A DNA stretch of 64,000 bases from Desulfomicrobium macestii (GTDB lineage Bacteria; Desulfobacterota; Desulfovibrionia; Desulfovibrionales; Desulfomicrobiaceae): NCBI RefSeq assembly GCF_014873765.1, contig NZ_JADBGG010000001.1:1-64000 (forward strand), in the 5' to 3' direction. The notes below the pieces were generated by a model that ran no database searches, was not told the DNA's origin, and saw only the letters and a list, made by a program, of their open reading frames with translations. Position 1 is the stretch's first letter. Every line of letters begins with the position of its first letter. The position numbers were made by a program, and so were the translations under genes. Positions 29,747-38,918 of the stretch are shown piece by piece.

Positions 29747-31213
29747 TCAGTAGAAGCCGATCAGGGGCCAATACACCAGTACGCTGATGGTCGCGACGAG
29801 AAGCAGGGTCAGACACCACGGGACCGCGACCTTGATGAACTCAGCCTGCGAGAAATATCCCGTGCTGTAGGCGATGATCGTCGGAGGGCAACCAATGACG
29901 AGCATGATGAACGAGGTGGTCATGGGGGATAGCATGGCCACGGCCTTTGGAGAGAGGTTCATCATTTCCGCCATGGGCAGGGTGATGGGCAAGGTCAGGG
30001 CCACGGCCGCGGAGTTGCTCATCAGGCTGGACAGGAATGAGCCGAAAAAGCCGATTCCGTAGAAGACCGCAAACGAAGGCTGGCCTTCAAGCAGCGGCAG
30101 ACAGACCTCAGCCAGGTATTTGCCCGCTCCGGATGTGAGCATGGCTCCGCCCAAGGATACACCGGCACCGAAGACGATCCAGGACTCCCAGGGGAATTTG
30201 TCGCAGATGGTCTTGAATGAAATGAACTTTGGGCCGCAAAATCCGGCCAGGGCCAGGGCGGCGGGGACGCTGTAGTGTAGTCCGGTCAGGTCCGAGAATG
30301 TCCACAGCAGGAAGGTCACTCCGAAGATGATGGTAACGCCGAGTTCTTTTCCCCGCATGGAAGGCATTTTTTCGATTCTCACCTCGGCCGGGAGTTCTTT
30401 TTCCTTGGGCCGGAAAATCATCCACAGGACGCCCCAAGTGGTGACGGCGGTCAGGATGCAGATGGGGAACTGGATGACGATGTACTCCAGGAAGCCGATG
30501 GTCGCCTCGTGACCCGCGTCTCGCGTGAAGTTTTGCAGGATTTCGAGGGCCAGAGGGTTGCGGCCGCCGCCCAGAAGGGTGCCGAAACCGCCGGCCGAGG
30601 AGGCTAATGGAATGAGAATGATGAAGAATTTTGAAAGATTGTTGCTTTTTTGCGGGGTGATTCCCATGGCCATGAAGACCGGAACCAGCGCAAAGATCAT
30701 GATGACCGTGACTGTCGCGTCGTGAAAGACGGTGGCCAGCATGGTGCACCCGACGGCCAGCACGAAGCTAAGTTTCTTGACCCCTGTTCCGGCCATCTTG
30801 AAAATGTAATACATGATGCGGTTAGCCAGGCCGACCTCGTTCAAGACCACGCCGAACATGACGATCATGAGCACGAACATGACCGCAGGACTGGCGAATG
30901 GCGCCCAGGCGTCGGTCGGCTTCTGGATGCCGAACAGGATGAGCCCCGCGGCGGCGCACAGGGCCGAGACGCCGATGGGTATGGCCTCCGTGACCCAGAG
31001 GAGGACGACGGTCAGGAGCAGGGCCAAAAATTTGTGCCCGTCGACGGGCAGATTGGCCGGGGTAGGCAGAAGATAAATTCCGAGGCCGATGGACAGGGAG
31101 ATGAGGGTCTTGATGATGATCGTACGGCCCGACTGCTCGGACGTTTCCGGGTGTTCTTCGATGAGGAGTTCATCTTCGGGGTGATTTCTGTAATCGATAT
31201 TTTCGTGGCTCAT
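29747..31213 (-). CDS. DASS (SLC13) family anion permease 1
   Basis: A 488-residue inner-membrane carrier of the divalent anion:sodium symporter superfamily, with about 11-12 helices. Family hallmarks are WVTEAIPIGVSAL, the first re-entrant region (SAGGFGTLLGGGRNPLALEIL) and the second (SNSAAVALTLPITLPMAEMM). The first loop reads GGGRNP, where characterised carriers have a Ser-Asn-Thr type motif, so the substrate may differ; sulfate or a dicarboxylate is possible. The ATG at 31213 (GGAG 7 bases upstream) overlaps the stop of the CBS gene by one base, which implies translational coupling to it. Confidence 0.88.
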   Translation of the reverse strand: MSHENIDYRNHPEDELLIEEHPETSEQSGRTIIIKTLISLSIGLGIYLLPTPANLPVDGHKFLALLLTVVLLWVTEAIPIGVSALCAAAGLILFGIQKPTDAWAPFASPAVMFVLMIVMFGVVLNEVGLANRIMYYIFKMAGTGVKKLSFVLAVGCTMLATVFHDATVTVIMIFALVPVFMAMGITPQKSNNLSKFFIILIPLASSAGGFGTLLGGGRNPLALEILQNFTRDAGHEATIGFLEYIVIQFPICILTAVTTWGVLWMIFRPKEKELPAEVRIEKMPSMRGKELGVTIIFGVTFLLWTFSDLTGLHYSVPAALALAGFCGPKFISFKTICDKFPWESWIVFGAGVSLGGAMLTSGAGKYLAEVCLPLLEGQPSFAVFYGIGFFGSFLSSLMSNSAAVALTLPITLPMAEMMNLSPKAVAMLSPMTTSFIMLVIGCPPTIIAYSTGYFSQAEFIKVAVPWCLTLLLVATISVLVYWPLIGFY

Positions 31214-31809
31214 TATGGCACTCCATGAAGATCTTTTTTCATTATGGGTGAAATTGCGCATGCGTCCTTCATGGTTGCCGATAAATGCGCGTACACGTCC
31301 GAAAAGGCGAGCATGCCGACAAGGCGCCCACCGTCGGTGACAAACAGGGAATCATGACGATTCATGACGAATCGGTGCAGGGCCTTGTCAAGGCTGTCAG
31401 TCACCATGACGGTTTGGCCCGCAGAGGGGCTGCTGACGAAATTCCGGATGAGAATCCCCGATGCGTCGGTACAGAGTTCGTGCAGTGGGGTCGTCCACAG
31501 TGCAGCCTGGTCCAGCGCACTTCCGATCATCTTGTCGTAGGAATGGCTTCGGGAGTATTCTCCGACATTGACCTTCAGTCTTGAATAGCGGGGTTCGAGG
31601 GCCATGAGCAGGTCCATGGGAGAAACCTTGCCCACGATGTGTCCCTTCCCGTCATGGACGAGAAGGATGCATGTGCTTTTTTTTCCGCTCTGAAAATCAA
31701 TGCGGCATTGTTCCAGCGCTCTCAGCGCGGCTCCGAACGTTTCCTCCTGAGAAATCCGGGGGAAATGCTCGGCCGGGATCATCAGTTCTTTCACGGTCAT
31801 TGGCTCCAT
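31213..31809 (-). CDS. CBS-domain pair protein 1
   Basis: A 198-residue soluble protein with two CBS motifs. The first (about 5-75) starts TVKELMIPAEHFPRISQEET and ends GKVSPMDLLMALEP; the second (about 115-185) has LIRNFVSS and DSLFVTDGGRLVGMLAFSDVY. CBS pairs bind adenine nucleotides and act as regulatory modules. AAGGAG lies 6 bases before the ATG. The one-base overlap with permease 1 suggests it gates or senses state for that transporter (inference). Confidence 0.88.
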   Translation of the reverse strand: MEPMTVKELMIPAEHFPRISQEETFGAALRALEQCRIDFQSGKKSTCILLVHDGKGHIVGKVSPMDLLMALEPRYSRLKVNVGEYSRSHSYDKMIGSALDQAALWTTPLHELCTDASGILIRNFVSSPSAGQTVMVTDSLDKALHRFVMNRHDSLFVTDGGRLVGMLAFSDVYAHLSATMKDACAISPIMKKDLHGVP

Positions 31810-32269
31810 TGATAACTCCTTCGAGGTGTGCCGGCCTTTGCCTTAGCAGTGTGGCCGGATGTGAAATCCGCCTTTTTTCTTCAAGCGCGGGTGCACGGCG
31901 GTGGACGCAATCCCGTCGCTGGGCTCCCTCATTTTCCAAGCGGAATGAAGAATCCCCGACCGGCGTGATGATGCCGGCCGTGTTTGAATCCATGCCGCTT
32001 CCGCGCTGCAGCTCTCCCGGGCAGGCGATTTCCGCCTGATCCATCCAGAGTTGCACTCCCGGCCAGGACCTGCGCTTCACGCAAAAGATGCGGAGCAGGC
32101 TGAGGTCCTTGGGCCATCCAGAACAGCCGGACGCCATGGATTCAAAGCATTCAAAAAACGGAAAAATCGTTGTTGCTGCTGGGCAGCCGGCTGTAACAAT
32201 AAAACAATGTGGCCGGGAAATTCCGATTTTACCAGCAGCGGGAGCAAAAATGGAAGCCGCCAATCGGGT
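31810..32269 (-). other. Intergenic region, no gene recognised
   Basis: About 460 bases between two leftward genes. The open frames have no family resemblance and no good ribosome sites. An imperfect inverted repeat near 32168-32200 (TTGTT...AACAA arms) may end the small membrane gene on its right. The AAGGAG of CBS gene 1 is at the left edge. I see nothing else. Confidence 0.5.
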
Positions 32270-32500
32270 CTAATTGTCGAAAAAGCGACTCCAGAGCGAG
32301 ATCGCCAGATTCAAAGCGAAGAGTCCCGCCAGGCTTGCCGGCCAAAACCACCATTTTTTGAGTATCGGAGGATTCCAGGCCTTCCCCCGCGGTAGATTAT
32401 GCAGCGGCTTGTAGCTGCTATTCTCGTGCGGCTGGGATGATTTCCGCAAATTCGGCTGACGTCCGTGTTCTTCTTCGTTGAAACTGAAATTTTCCTGCAT
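32270..32500 (-). CDS. Small single-pass membrane protein
   Basis: A 76-residue protein with a charged, probably disordered N-terminal 45 residues (MQENFSFNEEEHGRQ) and one C-terminal membrane helix (WWFWPASLAGLFALNLAISLW) ending FFDN. GAGG lies 6 bases before the ATG at 32500. I do not recognise it. It sits between receiver 1 and CBS protein 1 in the leftward cluster, so it may be an accessory part of the permease system (inference from position). Confidence 0.65.
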   Translation of the reverse strand: MQENFSFNEEEHGRQPNLRKSSQPHENSSYKPLHNLPRGKAWNPPILKKWWFWPASLAGLFALNLAISLWSRFFDN

Positions 32501-32586
32501 CAATACCTCATTGCAAAGGGACAGCCGTTTCCCCAGGGAAAGCGATCCGGAGGGGAAACGACGGATAATTTCAGCCTTGGGTGGAA

Positions 32587-33033
32587 TTAGAAGCCCAGGC
32601 TTTTGTGCATCTTGTCGAGTATGGCCTTTTCTTCCGCCCTGCGCAGGCGTTCGTCGCGATCTCTTTTGATCTTGTAGGCCTCCTGAATTTTTACCACGAG
32701 ATATTCGTATTCATATGGTTTCATGAGATAATCGTAGGCACCCAAGCGCATGCCTTCCACGGCCGAGGATACGTCGCCGTGACCGGTGAGCATGATAACT
32801 TCGACGCCGATGTGTCTTCCACGAATCTCCGACAGCGTCTCGATGCCGCTGAGACCCGGCATCTGGATGTCAAGAATAACGATGTCGAATTTTTCCGCCG
32901 CAAGGCGGTCCAGGGCTTCCATGCCGCTGCTCGCACCGCTGACTTCGTAGCCAGTCTCCTGCAACCGCTTGGCCAGAGTTTCTCGAAACCTTTCTTCATC
33001 ATCAACCAGAAGCAATTTGGGCAAAAAATCCAT
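32587..33033 (-). CDS. Receiver-only response regulator 1
   Basis: A 148-residue CheY-like receiver without an output domain. It shows the acidic pair in LLLVDDEERF, the phospho-acceptor Asp in IVILDIQMPG, Thr in VIMLTGHGD and Lys in YLMKPYEYEY. A short charged helix (KIQEAYKIKRDRDERLRRAEEKA) follows. It is closely similar to receiver 2. The ATG at 33033 has AGGAGG 5 bases upstream. It is separated from the second receiver gene by about 300 bases with a terminator. Confidence 0.93.
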   Translation of the reverse strand: MDFLPKLLLVDDEERFRETLAKRLQETGYEVSGASSGMEALDRLAAEKFDIVILDIQMPGLSGIETLSEIRGRHIGVEVIMLTGHGDVSSAVEGMRLGAYDYLMKPYEYEYLVVKIQEAYKIKRDRDERLRRAEEKAILDKMHKSLGF

Positions 33034-33252
33034 TATTTCCTCCTCATGGAAGTGACACTGCATTGGTTCGGGTATGTTTATTGTTTGTGAATACCGTAAC
33101 AATGTTTTCATTTCAAGATATTCTCGCCGGTTCTCTGCAGAATCGCAATTGCCTGAATTAACATGGAGAGAGGATGCAAAGATGTCTCGAAACGTACATT
33201 GGTCTTCAGGCGTGCCAGACCTTTGGATGTCTTCCTTGGTTCTTCTGGTTGA

Positions 33253-33279
33253 ACCGGGGGGATGTAATCCCCCCGGTTT
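33253..33279 (-). terminator. Terminator after receiver 2
   Basis: 12-bp perfect stem AACCGGGGGGAT/ATCCCCCCGGTT with a 3-base loop, about 60 bases beyond the stop of the gene at 33339. Confidence 0.8.
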
Positions 33280-33338
33280 GACTATTACGACTGTGTCGGT
33301 CCGCTATCGTTATCTAGGATCGGTACAATGTTGGAACG

Positions 33339-33782
33339 CTAGACCCATCTTTTCTGCAGTTTATCCAGCAGGGCTTTTTCTTCTGCCCTGTGCAGCCTTT
33401 CGTCACGGTCTTTCTTGATTTTATAGGCTTCCTGGATCTTGACTACGAGGTACTCGTATTCACAGGGCTTCATCAGATAGTCAAAGGCACCGAGGCGCAT
33501 GCCTTCTACGGCCGAGGATACGTCACCGTGTCCTGTAAGCATGATCACTTCCACGCTAAGGTGCTTGGCGCGGATTTCAGCCAGGGTTTCGATGCCGCTT
33601 AGTCCCGGCATCCGGATGTCGAGTATGGCCACATCGAATTTGTTGGTGGAGAGCAGGTCCAGTGCTTCCATGCCGCTGGCGGCCTCGCTCACCTTGTATC
33701 CGGTTTCCGTCAGACGCTTGGCCAGCGTTTCGCGAAAACGGTCTTCATCGTCGATAAGAAGCAATCTTGGCAAATTTTCCAT
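33339..33782 (-). CDS. Receiver-only response regulator 2
   Basis: A 147-residue CheY-like receiver, a close paralog of receiver 1 with the same order of motifs: LLLIDDEDRF, VAILDIRMPG (phospho-acceptor Asp), VIMLTGHGD and YLMKPCEYEY, then the same charged C-terminal helix. No DNA-binding domain follows. AAGGAGG lies 5 bases before the ATG. It is the first receiver downstream of permease 2, and the two receiver genes look like a tandem duplication separated by a terminator. Confidence 0.93.
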   Translation of the reverse strand: MENLPRLLLIDDEDRFRETLAKRLTETGYKVSEAASGMEALDLLSTNKFDVAILDIRMPGLSGIETLAEIRAKHLSVEVIMLTGHGDVSSAVEGMRLGAFDYLMKPCEYEYLVVKIQEAYKIKKDRDERLHRAEEKALLDKLQKRWV

Positions 33783-33929: not shown

Positions 33930-35396
33930 TTAGTTGAATCCGATCATCGGCCAGTAAGTCAGTGCCGCGGCTACGCAGATGGCCAGCAGGGTGAGGCACC
34001 AGGGGATGGCTACCTTGGAGAACTCGACCTGGGTGAAGTATCCGGTGCTGTAAGCGATGATTGTGGGAGGACAACCAATGACGAGCATGATGAAGGAGGT
34101 GGTCATGGGGGCGAGAAGACCGACGGTCTCGACGCTCATGTTCATCATGCTGGCCATGGGTAGGGTCACGGGCAGGCTCAGGGCCACGGCCGCCGAGTTG
34201 CTCATCATGCTCGACAGGGCCGAGCCAAAGAGGCCGATGCCGTAATAGGTGACGAAGGGGGAGTGCCCCTGGAGCAGCGGCAGGCAGACTTCGGCCAGGT
34301 ACTTGCCAAGGCCGCTGGAGAGCATGGCCGCGCCCAGGGAGACGCCGGAGCCGAAGACGATCCAGGATTCCCACGGGAACTTGTCACAGATGGTCTTGAA
34401 AGAGACCCAGCCGGGAGCACAGAAGCCTGCAAGGGCCAGTGCCGCGACCACGCTGACATGCCAGCCGGTCAGGTCGCCGGCGAACCACATGATGAATGCG
34501 GCGGAGAAGATTGCTGCCACACCCTTTTCAGCGCTGCTCATGGGCGGCATGGACTCGATCTTCACGGATGCGGGAAGTTCCTTTTCCTTGGGTCGGAAGT
34601 ACAGGAAACAGATGGCCCAGGTCGCTATGGCGGTGAAGATGGAGACCGGGAATTCGACGATGGCGTACTTCAGGAAGCCGATTTTGACCGCGACGCCCGT
34701 GGCCTCCAGAAGGTACTTCTGGGTGATGTCCACGGCCAGGGCGCAGCGGCCGCCGCCGAGCATGGTGCCGAAGCCGCCGGCCGATGCCGCCAGAGGAATG
34801 AGGATGATGAAGAATTTGCTCAGGTTGTTGCTCTTCTTCGGCGTGATGCCCATGCTCTGGAAGAGGGGTACAATGGCGAAGAGCATGATGATGGTGATGG
34901 TCGCGTCATGAAAGAGGGTCGAGAGCAGGGTGCTGCTTATGGCTATGAAGAAGCTGAGCTGCTTCACCTTTGTTCCCGCGAATTTCAGGATAAAGAAAAG
35001 CAGGCGTTTGGCCAGGCCGACCTCGTTCAGGATGACGCCGAACATGATGATCATCATGACGAACATGACGGTCCGGTTGGCGTATGGAGCCCAGGCCTGC
35101 GAACTGCCCGTAACCTTGAAAATGATCATGAGCGCCGTGGCCAGCAGGGCGGTAACGCCAATGGGAATGGCTTCGGATACCCATAGGAACACGATCGGGA
35201 GCAGGATGGCGCCCAGACGATGCGCTTCCACCGGGAGGGACTCCGGACGGGGCAGAAAGTAAATGAACAGAAAAAGACCAAGCGCGATGAGCAATTTGAT
35301 GATCATGGATTTGGATGACTGAGTCGGACCCTGGGGCTCTTCTTCGTGCATGAGGAGCTCATCTGGGGAAGTATCTCGCACGTCTTGTGCACTCAT
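33930..35396 (-). CDS. DASS (SLC13) family anion permease 2
   Basis: A 488-residue paralog of permease 1, with the same length and motif order: WVSEAIPIGVTALLAT, the re-entrant loop SAGGFGTMLGGGRCALAVDIT, and SNSAAVALSLPVTLPMASMM. The first loop is again GGGR where Ser-Asn-Thr is expected, and the residue after it differs (RCAL against RNPL in permease 1). The two carriers may thus differ in substrate. AAGGAG lies 7 bases before the ATG. It is 67 bases downstream of CBS gene 2, in the same order as the first set. Confidence 0.88.
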   Translation of the reverse strand: MSAQDVRDTSPDELLMHEEEPQGPTQSSKSMIIKLLIALGLFLFIYFLPRPESLPVEAHRLGAILLPIVFLWVSEAIPIGVTALLATALMIIFKVTGSSQAWAPYANRTVMFVMMIIMFGVILNEVGLAKRLLFFILKFAGTKVKQLSFFIAISSTLLSTLFHDATITIIMLFAIVPLFQSMGITPKKSNNLSKFFIILIPLAASAGGFGTMLGGGRCALAVDITQKYLLEATGVAVKIGFLKYAIVEFPVSIFTAIATWAICFLYFRPKEKELPASVKIESMPPMSSAEKGVAAIFSAAFIMWFAGDLTGWHVSVVAALALAGFCAPGWVSFKTICDKFPWESWIVFGSGVSLGAAMLSSGLGKYLAEVCLPLLQGHSPFVTYYGIGLFGSALSSMMSNSAAVALSLPVTLPMASMMNMSVETVGLLAPMTTSFIMLVIGCPPTIIAYSTGYFTQVEFSKVAIPWCLTLLAICVAAALTYWPMIGFN

Positions 35397-35463: not shown

Positions 35464-36018
35464 TCAGAGGCCGCACGATTCTTTGATTCTGCGGCCAATT
35501 TCCTTGTACACGTCGGAAAAGCGCAACACGCCAATGAGCTTCTTGCCGTCCATGACGAAAAGAGAGTCATGCTTGAACATGACAAAGCGGTGGAAGGCAT
35601 TGTTCAGGTTCGCGTCCTGGTCGATGATCTGGGATGATTTTGGCGGCTGGATGAAATCCTTGACCAGGATATCCTTGGCAATGGCGCAGAGGTCGTCCAG
35701 GGGTTTGGCCCAAAGGGTGGTCTGCTCTTTCATGGGCTGGATCACGTAGCTGAACTTTTCAACGTACACGCTGCTCTGTTCGTCGACCAGTTTTTCGTAG
35801 TCCGGTTCGAGTCCTCGGACCACGTCGAGGGGTGAGAGCTTGCCGACGACCTTGTTTTCACTGTCGGTCACCAGCAGGATGCGCTGTTCGCGCTTGCCGG
35901 AAAGGTATTCCTCGTTGGCCCTCTCCAGAGCCATGACCGCTCCTGAGAAAGTTGCCGTGTCCGATATCCTGGGAAATTTGGCTATGGGGACCATGAAATC
36001 TTTTACGGATGCTTCCAT
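35464..36018 (-). CDS. CBS-domain pair protein 2
   Basis: A 184-residue protein with two CBS motifs: ASVKDFMVPIAKFPRISDTATF at the start (first CBS ending GKLSPLDVVRGLEP near 85) and LVKDFIQPP...DSLFVMDGKKLIGVLRFSDVY at the end. It resembles CBS protein 1 in layout. The ATG at 36018 was chosen at the conserved start, with AAGGAG 9 bases upstream. A longer opening exists, but its extra residues are not typical. It is the first gene of the leftward operon and faces a divergent sigma-54 activator. Confidence 0.86.
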   Translation of the reverse strand: MEASVKDFMVPIAKFPRISDTATFSGAVMALERANEEYLSGKREQRILLVTDSENKVVGKLSPLDVVRGLEPDYEKLVDEQSSVYVEKFSYVIQPMKEQTTLWAKPLDDLCAIAKDILVKDFIQPPKSSQIIDQDANLNNAFHRFVMFKHDSLFVMDGKKLIGVLRFSDVYKEIGRRIKESCGL

Positions 36019-36136
36019 TATCCATCGCTCCTTGGGGTTGGGCCGGAATTGATGATTGTGCACCATCTTCGCCTCCGACACAGGTTTATTGCCGATTTCA
36101 AGTCGTTAAATAATCTTGCAAACACTGTGGAGTGAT

Positions 36137-36153
36137 TAACAATTCCTGTGCCA
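36137..36153 (-). promoter_or_regulatory. Likely sigma-54 (-24/-12) promoter, leftward
   Basis: On the minus strand TTGGCACAGGAATTGTTA has GG, ten bases, then GT, close to TGGCAC-N5-TTGC (the second base of the -12 GC is T). The expected start is near 36125, about 105 bases before CBS gene 2. The adjacent divergent gene encodes a sigma-54 activator. Confidence 0.6.
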
Positions 36154-36226
36154 AGTTTTTTTTGCGCGATATGAATTTTTATATCTAAAACTCTGTTTTT
36201 AAATAATATTATTTTGATATAAAATT

Positions 36227-36241
36227 CACAAATAGTTTGTG
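36227..36241. promoter_or_regulatory. Inverted repeat, possible activator site
   Basis: CACAAATAGTTTGTG, perfect 6-bp arms with a 3-base centre. It lies 75-88 bases upstream of the leftward -24 element and 14 bases upstream of the rightward one. Its use by the activator is inference. Confidence 0.4.
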
Positions 36242-36254
36242 CTCTCTCGGTTTT

Positions 36255-36269
36255 TGGCAATGTTGTTGC
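36255..36269 (+). promoter_or_regulatory. Likely sigma-54 (-24/-12) promoter, rightward
   Basis: TGGCAATGTTGTTGC matches TGGCA-N6-TTGC with GG and GC separated by exactly ten bases. The expected start is near 36281, about 109 bases before the sigma-54 activator gene, suggesting self-activation. Confidence 0.65.
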
Positions 36270-36389
36270 GTAATTTTTGCTGTATATTGCTCTTTTTCTT
36301 CTTGAGCAAAGTGTACGGTGTCTGTTATCGGGAAGGAAAATTTGCGCGATTTGAGGCTGTTTCGGAAGGGGTGGAGAAATGGAGGAAGC

Positions 36390-38918
36390 ATGATCAAGCC
36401 GAAAGTAATTTTGGAATGGGCATCCCGGATGCGGCCCGGTGGACCTGTTCCAGCCAGGCGTAAACTCCGAACGCGTCTGCTCGTGACGCTTATCCCCACG
36501 TCTCTCATCGTGCTCGCGCTGATGGGATATGCAACGTATTGGGCGTCATCGGAATTTATCTCCCTCGCCCTTGAACGCAACTCACGGATTCATGCCGTTT
36601 CCACCGCCTATGCGGTGGAAACGTTGCTGGAGCGTTGCAAGCGGCAGCTTCTTTTTGCGGCCCGCAATCCCATGAGCGCGGAGGATATGGCCCGCTATTT
36701 AAGGGATATTCGGGAACTCGACGGCCTTGAGTTTGCGGAATTCGGCTTCATTCCCCTGCGTGAAGCAGATCCTGTTGTTTTTGTGAGTCGCGAGGGGAAA
36801 GAAATACGATTGACGCAGGATGAAGTGAACGGCATTCGGCCCGGTCCAGCGCTTCTGTATGCGCATGTTCGCGGTTTGAAAGCGGGTGAAGTGTGGCTGT
36901 CGGAGTTTAAAGAGGTGGAAACTCCCTATCCCAGTGCTGACAATCCGCGAGAACGCATGTCCTGTGTCGCGTTGCGTATGGTGACTCCCTATGTGGGTCC
37001 TGACGGAGAACTGGACGGGTACGCTTATCTTTCGCTTAACGCCAAGATGATCCGCAATGTGCTCTCTCTCTATGAGTCGTCCAATTCTCCCGTTTTCGCT
37101 TTCTCGCGCAATCCAAAGTTTCAGCGGTACACCTTTTTTTTCGATGTGGGGGGGTGGGTGCTTTTCCAGTCCGAATCGGAACAGGGTGACGATGCGCCTC
37201 TGCGTACCTTGAATATCCGGAAAACCTTGTCCGGGACTCTGGGCAGACCCGGTATGCCAGAGGCGTTCCGTCCCTCGGAGCGGAACGAAAATTATTGGCA
37301 GACCGTCGAGGATGTCCGCGATGGGCACAAGGACATTGTCCGGTCGCTCAATCGAGTGGAGTCCGCTTCGCCCTACAGTGACCATTTTCTTGCCTACGCT
37401 CCGGTACGCCTGCACCTGGCCCCGGATCAGGACGCAAGAATCATCGGCGGAATCGCCTACGAAGACCGCAGCGTGCTGGTCGACCTCGCAGGTTACAGGC
37501 ACATCGATGTCATGCTGATCATCAGCGCCATTTCCGTGCTGGTTCTGGTGCTGGCCATTGCTCTGGTGGCCAGGGGCACCACGCTGGGTCTGCAGGAACT
37601 TGCCTATGCGGTGAAGACTCTCACGGAAAAGGGAGAGTGGGAGGAAGTCCGTCTGATCGAGACGGGCTATGAGGCAGAGATGCTCAAGGATTCGATCAAT
37701 TCCATGATCAGGACACTGCAGGCGCAGTTTGAGGAGATCAAGTCAAAGGACCTGAAGATCGAGTCCGTGGCTTTGAAAGAACCGGCGGAACTGAGTATGG
37801 GGTCCTCCATATCCACATTGGACGCGGACTTTCCGGAACTTGTCGGTTCGGGGCCGCACATGAAGCAGATGAAACGCGTCATCATCAAGGCCAGCCAGGT
37901 CGAAGTGGACGTGCTTATCGAAGGCGAGACCGGTACGGGCAAGCAATTGGCCGCCGAAGCCGTTCATCGCCTGTCGTCCAGAAACGGCAAACCCTTCATC
38001 TCAATCAATTGCGGTGAACTGGACGAGAATCTCTTGCTCGATTCCCTGTTTGGTCACGTCAAAGGGGCGTTCACGGACGGTAAGGGGGACCGGCGCGGCG
38101 CTTTTCTGCAGGCCGATGGCGGGACGCTGTTTCTGGACGAGATTCAGTCCGCATCCATGAAGGTCCAGCAAGCCTTGTTGCGAGCTCTGTCCCTGCGCAA
38201 GATCAAGCCGCTGGGCAGCGACCAGGATGTGGACGTGAACGTGCGTCTTATCACGGCCACCAATGTCGATTTGAAGGCCCTGATCGGTGAAGGGAAGTTC
38301 CGTGAGGATCTCTATTACCGGCTCAAGGTCATTACCATCACAACCCCTCCGTTACGGGAGCAGCGGCAGAACATCCCGCTTTTGGCCATGCACTTCCTGA
38401 AAGAGGGGGAACACATGGCTGGAAGATCTGATCTCGCTCTTTCGCGCGGGGCCCTGAAAGCCCTTGTCTCCTATGATTGGCCAGGCAACATCCGCGAACT
38501 CAAGCATGTGATCATAACGGCGGCCGTGATGTCCGAGGGGCGCGTGATCCAGTCCGAGCAATTGGGCATCAACGGCAAGGCAAGAAATGAGGATGACGCA
38601 TTAAACCAGAGTGCGGATTCGTTTGTGCGGGAGAAAGGGGACGGTTTTGAAAATTCGTTTCCCGCAAGAACTGATAAAAAGAAACATGACACAGTATTGC
38701 CTTTGGATCTGAACCCCCGGCAGGTCATAGCATGCGAGTATGTACGGGGGCATGGGAGCATTTCGAGCAAGGACCTGCTCGATCTTCTCGATGGCGGCAT
38801 TTCAAAGAGAACCGCAAGCTATGACCTCCAGGACCTGGTCGGCCGCGGCCTGCTGGCAAGGATAGGTCGTGGTCCCTCGACGCGTTACGTGTGGCCCTCG
38901 GGCGGCGATTCGTCCTGA
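36390..38918 (+). CDS. Membrane-anchored sigma-54-dependent transcriptional activator
   Basis: An 842-residue activator with its own sensor. TM1 is near 28-50, with a periplasmic Cache-like region to about 365. TM2 is near 370-395, followed by a HAMP-like linker. The AAA+ domain, about 480-715, has Walker A GETGTGKQ, a GAFTDG loop where GAFTGA is usual, and Walker B TLFLDEIQ. The C-terminal ~60 residues (NPRQVIACEYVRGHGSISSKDLLDLL...TASYDLQDLVGRGLLARIG) resemble a winged-helix module rather than the Fis-type helix-turn-helix of most such activators. There is no receiver domain. The ATG at 36390 has GGAGG 4 bases upstream. Confidence 0.9.
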   Translation: MIKPKVILEWASRMRPGGPVPARRKLRTRLLVTLIPTSLIVLALMGYATYWASSEFISLALERNSRIHAVSTAYAVETLLERCKRQLLFAARNPMSAEDMARYLRDIRELDGLEFAEFGFIPLREADPVVFVSREGKEIRLTQDEVNGIRPGPALLYAHVRGLKAGEVWLSEFKEVETPYPSADNPRERMSCVALRMVTPYVGPDGELDGYAYLSLNAKMIRNVLSLYESSNSPVFAFSRNPKFQRYTFFFDVGGWVLFQSESEQGDDAPLRTLNIRKTLSGTLGRPGMPEAFRPSERNENYWQTVEDVRDGHKDIVRSLNRVESASPYSDHFLAYAPVRLHLAPDQDARIIGGIAYEDRSVLVDLAGYRHIDVMLIISAISVLVLVLAIALVARGTTLGLQELAYAVKTLTEKGEWEEVRLIETGYEAEMLKDSINSMIRTLQAQFEEIKSKDLKIESVALKEPAELSMGSSISTLDADFPELVGSGPHMKQMKRVIIKASQVEVDVLIEGETGTGKQLAAEAVHRLSSRNGKPFISINCGELDENLLLDSLFGHVKGAFTDGKGDRRGAFLQADGGTLFLDEIQSASMKVQQALLRALSLRKIKPLGSDQDVDVNVRLITATNVDLKALIGEGKFREDLYYRLKVITITTPPLREQRQNIPLLAMHFLKEGEHMAGRSDLALSRGALKALVSYDWPGNIRELKHVIITAAVMSEGRVIQSEQLGINGKARNEDDALNQSADSFVREKGDGFENSFPARTDKKKHDTVLPLDLNPRQVIACEYVRGHGSISSKDLLDLLDGGISKRTASYDLQDLVGRGLLARIGRGPSTRYVWPSGGDSS

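Follow-up and report, generated by a model that had tools for sequence, protein, structure and literature searches.

One of the closest described systems is that of DVU0151 in Desulfovibrio vulgaris Hildenborough, which the available part of the source presents as a sigma-54 activator of the one-component kind whose long N-terminal region is conserved and in which a Fis-type HTH is not annotated, a winged helix being recognised in some orthologues, including Dbac_2039 (PMC4641369). The gene is divergent from the sigma-54 promoter of the transport operon DVU0150-DVU0146 and encodes the loop GAFSEA; the same part of that work admits departures from GAFTGA in this loop, among them GAFTDA and GAFTGG, and does not list GAFTDG (PMC4641369). 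A second point of reference is the cluster of DASS, CBS and two-component genes of Desulfosarcina variabilis and its relatives, which has been called a sulfate transporter cluster common to many sulfate reducers and for which a model involving kinases, WalR-type regulators, CBS proteins and repressors has been put forward, with no sigma-54 activator named in the available part of the paper (PMC11887813). A further source, in the portion at hand, describes how sulfate is accumulated with high affinity when it is limiting, and transported in a sodium-dependent manner, in Desulfomicrobium baculatum (PMC5840216). Our literature search on DVU0151 and on winged-helix activators in Desulfovibrio returned no further study of this activator family.

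The locus analysed here lies in a 64-kb stretch of the Desulfomicrobium macestii genome, which as a whole is referred to as the window; the genome comprises 4.5 Mb in 99 contigs, and a search of it finds one RpoN (sigma-54) gene. Within the window, genes for a CBS-domain protein (35464..36018, minus strand) and a DASS-family anion permease (33930..35396, minus strand) are divergent from the gene of a one-component sigma-54 activator (36390..38918, plus strand). Like DVU0151, as far as the available text describes it, the window activator is a one-component protein without a Fis HTH and is divergent from a sigma-54 transport operon; unlike DVU0151 with its GAFSEA, it has the loop GAFTDG and a CBS-DASS target. 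The reading that we favour, at a probability of about 0.78, is that a single sigma-54 promoter faces the CBS-DASS operon and that copies of the motif TTTGCRCGATWT serve as sites for the divergent, membrane-anchored activator, which itself would be expressed from an ordinary promoter. Judged by sequence comparison, the left-hand promoter is conserved and a right-hand match is not, the architecture is family-wide, and the motif is shared between loci.

The gene at 36390-38918 had been read beforehand as encoding a sigma-54 activator, and the Pfam search bears this out, with Sigma54_activat (PF00158) matching residues 509-674 at an E-value of 1.3e-59 and AAA_lid_14 matching at 3.5e-19. Two hydrophobic stretches, as read from the sequence, bracket an extracytoplasmic region. 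The structure prediction of this sensor is modest (mean pLDDT 57.5), and the best structural matches of the model are dCache ligand-binding domains, e.g., those of TlpA and TlpC of Helicobacter; on many consistent hits the modelled sensor is dCache-like, although the model does not reveal the ligand. A C-terminal HTH of the Fis type is usual, but not universal, in bacterial enhancer-binding proteins. The Pfam search found no Fis family match in the C-terminus of the window activator, where the sole hit was to the winged-helix family PF22168 at 23.7 bits, below the cut-off of 27, and a PDB sequence search with the C-terminal domain was without a match.

The activator is one of a large family of one-component proteins in Desulfobacterota that combine a membrane-anchored dCache-like sensor, an AAA+ domain and a winged helix rather than a Fis HTH. 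At E<=1e-120, 156 of the 348 genomes of the order gave a match to such an activator, and at E<=1e-150 so did 18 of 395 genomes sampled from the phylum. The family loci that were fetched are part of the matches listed for the order (L049-L068 together with 60 chosen by hand); the duplicate contigs L043, L044, L045 and L047 (equal to L014, L019, L015 and L018, respectively) were dropped, as was L082, which has no upstream DNA. Among the 125 family loci examined, a sigma-54 site scoring at least 11.5 faces the target in 114, of which 36 also trained the matrix, and faces the activator in 6. The activator stays divergent from the CBS-DASS pair in 14 loci and, as in the DVU0151 type, adjoins a transport gene with a target-facing sigma-54 promoter. 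The same genome holds a second family activator (L002/L038; L038 7034-11288), 37% identical to that of the window, which has the loop GAFSEA, its own target-facing sigma-54 promoter and a divergent permease gene that reads from its sequence as TSUP-type. With this loop and target, the paralogue is probably the DVU0151 orthologue.

The permease is a DASS member by its match to PF00939 (E 1.3e-40, above the cut-off), and it also matches TIGR00785 at 2.1e-52, yet under the curated cut-off of that model. Its substrate may be sulfate or else a dicarboxylate; among its PDB relatives are carriers of carboxylates as well as SLC13 members whose specificity differs. The CBS gene starts at ATG 36018, where the Shine-Dalgarno sequence AAGGAG and the ATG are conserved in aligned relatives, and two of these carry deletions upstream of the ATG. 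The conserved start and the deletions rule out GTG 36081, so that the boundary of 36082 adopted in the preliminary description does not mark the start of the gene. Downstream of this first pair, positions 29747-33782 of the minus strand hold two response regulators that consist of a receiver alone, together with a second CBS-DASS pair. Downstream of the activator gene are two histidine kinases of dCache type and a further receiver; for the second of these kinases the dCache match is near or below the cut-off, and for neither does it clear the cut-off by a wide margin. Likened by the kinds of genes present, the cluster resembles that of Desulfosarcina variabilis in bringing together DASS permeases, CBS proteins and cache-domain histidine kinases, and differs from it, as described in the available text, in including a divergent sigma-54 activator (PMC11887813). 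A pattern scan gave no good sigma-54 match ahead of the second CBS gene. A strong hairpin with the arms AACCGGGGGGAT and ATCCCCCCGGTT is found at 33249-33277 (minus strand), between the genes of the two response regulators; it has no T run and could be a processing or attenuation element.

The promoter assigned to the CBS-DASS operon, TGGCACAGGAATTGTT, lies at 36138..36153 on the minus strand and reads TGGCAC-N5-TTGTT, with the GG and the -12 dinucleotide GT ten bases apart, just as had been noticed earlier. Its predicted transcription start is near 36127, which leaves a leader of about 109 nt to the CBS ATG if transcription begins 12 nt past the -12 base. The -24 element has its GG in the TGGCAC context and at the correct spacing to the -12 element; the latter is GT or GA in 13 of the 14 CBS-DASS loci and GC only in L046. 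Because the -12 is GT rather than GC, the consensus match of the site is lowered, and it is still marked as a promoter on account of its conservation. A matrix trained solely on 36 target-facing promoters of paralogous loci, with L018 and L034 left out of the training, recovered a site of this type in all 14 CBS-DASS loci, with scores from 9.1 to 17.7 and a shuffle p of at most 0.02 in 13 of them (0.065 in L016). In the window the core score of the site is reached nowhere else on either strand of the 64 kb (shuffle p=0.0065), and in an alignment of ten loci the flanking sequence drifts and the -24 and -12 blocks stay. The earlier proposal that the CBS-permease operon is under a sigma-54 promoter is upheld by this comparison, by which the left site is a real and conserved promoter. 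An IHF site between promoter and enhancer was also considered and rejected, since the best matches, averaging 7.8 of 9, were no better than those in shuffles (7.4); a search of 35900-36500 for riboswitches and other known RNAs gave none at E<=1.

The motif TTTGCRCGATWT was overlooked in the preliminary description and is, from its distribution, the likely binding site of the activator. Its only exact copies in the window are TTTGCGCGATAT (36161..36172, plus strand), at -34 to -45 of the left promoter, and TTTGCGCGATTT (36341..36352, plus strand), at -214 to -225 and within the activator leader; they are 180 bp apart, and the position of the former is unusually close to the predicted start for an activator site. 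The exact motif occurs three times in the 4.5-Mb genome, twice at this locus and once inside an open reading frame. It was found de novo and independently in the orthologues and in the paralogue regions beside their own activators, unbiased word counts yielding the same core from both sets, as ATCGCGCA/TCGTGCAA for the CBS-DASS loci and as TTGCGCAA/TCGCGCAA for the paralogues. When the paralogue motif matrix was applied to 14 held-out CBS-DASS regions, 25 sites were obtained against 7.3 expected, 23 of them in the same orientation, although the best site is singly significant (p<=0.05) in only six loci (L001, L012, L013, L014, L049 and L051); L018 was excluded from the motif analysis. Across the genus, 27 exact hits in 16 genomes, seven of them at this locus, stand against one for the reversed pattern. 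A weaker candidate, TTGTTGCGTAATTT (36263..36276, plus strand, score 9.6), overlaps the -12 element of the proposed rightward promoter. In addition, a partial inverse copy, TTTGCAAGATTA, is found in the CBS leader at 36111-36122 (minus strand); it is retained in close relatives and may be a downstream binding site.

It had been suggested that a second sigma-54 promoter faces the activator gene, in which case the activator would drive both the CBS-DASS operon and, by positive autoregulation, its own gene. The underlying match, TGGCAATGTTGTTGC, does exist at 36255..36269 on the plus strand, with GG and GC ten bases apart and a leader of about 109 nt to the activator ATG 36390 under the same assumption about the start, so that the distances of some 105-109 bases given for both sides fit. 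Its core-only p is 0.056; 13 sites in the 64-kb window score as high as its core (11.0), and its score with the full taxon matrix, 0.23, is exceeded by the best chance site on that strand. Of the 14 orthologous loci, the window (L001) and its closest relative (L010) share the 16-mer unchanged, L011 has it in degraded form and the other 11 lack it. Matches to a loose -24/-12 pattern with two mismatches mean little by themselves, as 69 occur in the window where 79 are expected. Very strong activator-facing sigma-54 sites are present in L072, L074 and L076, distant relatives from other families of the phylum outside the order, which may be true divergent pairs or reflect autoactivation; they make the idea of divergent promoters reasonable, though unsupported at this locus. 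Furthermore, 16 of 37 paralogue regions carry a sigma-70-type promoter facing the activator, compared with 1 of 37 on the other strand. The same scan gave no significant activator-facing promoter in the 14 loci of the CBS-DASS branch (2 of 14 on the other strand), and none is accordingly claimed from the scan for the window activator gene, whose ordinary promoter we infer from the paralogues. On this evidence the rightward match looks like a chance match and is rejected as a promoter, and positive autoregulation from a divergent sigma-54 pair is very improbable. Compared with divergent sigma-54 operons of the DVUA0100 type (type III secretion), as described in the available part of the source, the window has one supported side only (PMC4641369).

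The enhancer proposed to be shared by both genes fared in a mixed manner, since repeated TTTGCRCGATWT sites do lie between them, whereas the right-hand side would at most be subject to autorepression and the element originally singled out is not the enhancer. That element, the inverted repeat CACAAA-TAG-TTTGTG, is indeed present at 36227..36241; such repeats number three where 1.5 are expected, 67% of shuffles contain at least one, and the right arm is not conserved in the aligned loci, so it is judged a chance palindrome. Its left arm is partly conserved, with TTCAC kept in nine of ten aligned loci, which is one reason to consider that the activator binds elsewhere, e.g., at TTCAC(A/G)A, and that the TTTGCRCGATWT repeats belong to another regulator. 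The motif is not exclusive to this regulator, as it occurs outside the locus and as G003 and G012 contain it four and two times, respectively, with no family activator matched in either genome, where some other factor may use a similar site. Nevertheless, its independent discovery in paralogue regions next to their own activators and its enrichment in the held-out CBS-DASS set make a different owner of the repeats unlikely. A further alternative accepts the left promoter as a sigma-54 promoter but has it driven by another activator, perhaps one linked to the neighbouring histidine kinases, with the adjacent activator serving other genes. The activator query matches 35 places in its own genome, mostly through the AAA+ domain alone, and the cluster itself includes dCache histidine kinases and receivers; set against this, 14 loci keep the activator divergent from the CBS-DASS pair, and next to its paralogues the same motif recurs beside other sigma-54 promoters that face the target, which leaves control by another activator quite improbable.

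The favoured reading, of one sigma-54 promoter and TTTGCRCGATWT sites for the divergent activator, would thus operate as follows. The activator would be made at a basal level from its ordinary, non-sigma-54 promoter and would receive a periplasmic signal at its dCache-like domain, by way of a presumed ligand. It would then bind the candidate TTTGCRCGATWT sites between the genes, and its AAA+ ring would remodel RNA polymerase-sigma-54 at 36138-36153, so that the operon of the CBS protein and the DASS anion permease, for sulfate or dicarboxylate, would be switched on, with no other side activated. The site at 36341-36352 would act as an upstream site for the operon and, probably, as an autoregulatory operator too, through which the activator may repress its own gene.

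The loop GAFTDG is found in the window and 11 other loci, and in all 12 a T or A replaces the -12 C of the promoter (TTGT/TTGA versus TTGC). The -12 C is present in 94 of 99 scored loci with a loop ending in A, the sites having been scored blind to that base. Eleven loci with a sigma-54 score below 10 were excluded from this count (L018, L046, L071, L073, L075, L077, L086, L113, L121, L124 and L138), of which L073 and L075 show TTGAT at sites of low score; L013 was read as GAFTDG in the 12-locus count, is missed by the loop pattern of the 99-locus count and is absent from the tree. In this tree of 124 rows, the CBS-DASS activators form one clade (support 100) and the GAFTDG rows one subclade within it (support 89), outside which lie L046 (GAFTDS, TTGCT) and L018. 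Since the GAFTDG rows form a single clade, the association reflects one historical change rather than repeated covariation and is confounded. A -12 T or A also occurs without a loop change in L023, L026, L102 and L110, as well as at a doubtful site in L070. For the alanine dehydrogenase promoter, which the literature assigns to a GAFTGG activator in D. vulgaris, 14 upstream regions were read (from 18 matches, the four from G002 being left out), and in 9 of them the best-scoring site has TTGC. As this promoter keeps TTGC, a general rule linking loop and -12 is unsupported and was rejected, the loop of its regulator being known from D. vulgaris only. It is distinctly unlikely that activator loop and promoter -12 changed together into a dedicated pair, shielded from the cell's other activators and controlling an operon for the uptake of an anion, perhaps sulfate. 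The association between GAFTDG and the -12 base is retained as a lead from sequence and, if experiments bear it out, would bear on activator-promoter matching.

The unit described here is useful but ordinary, and regulatory units of its kind are already known. It also illustrates how a second promoter recognised by eye, however plausible, may fail against related sequences. The family comparison gives a common candidate motif for a class whose one named D. vulgaris member, in the available literature, is DVU0151. Anion uptake must be tuned by sulfate reducers, and for uptake through DASS permeases the locus offers a concrete regulator, a promoter and candidate binding sites.
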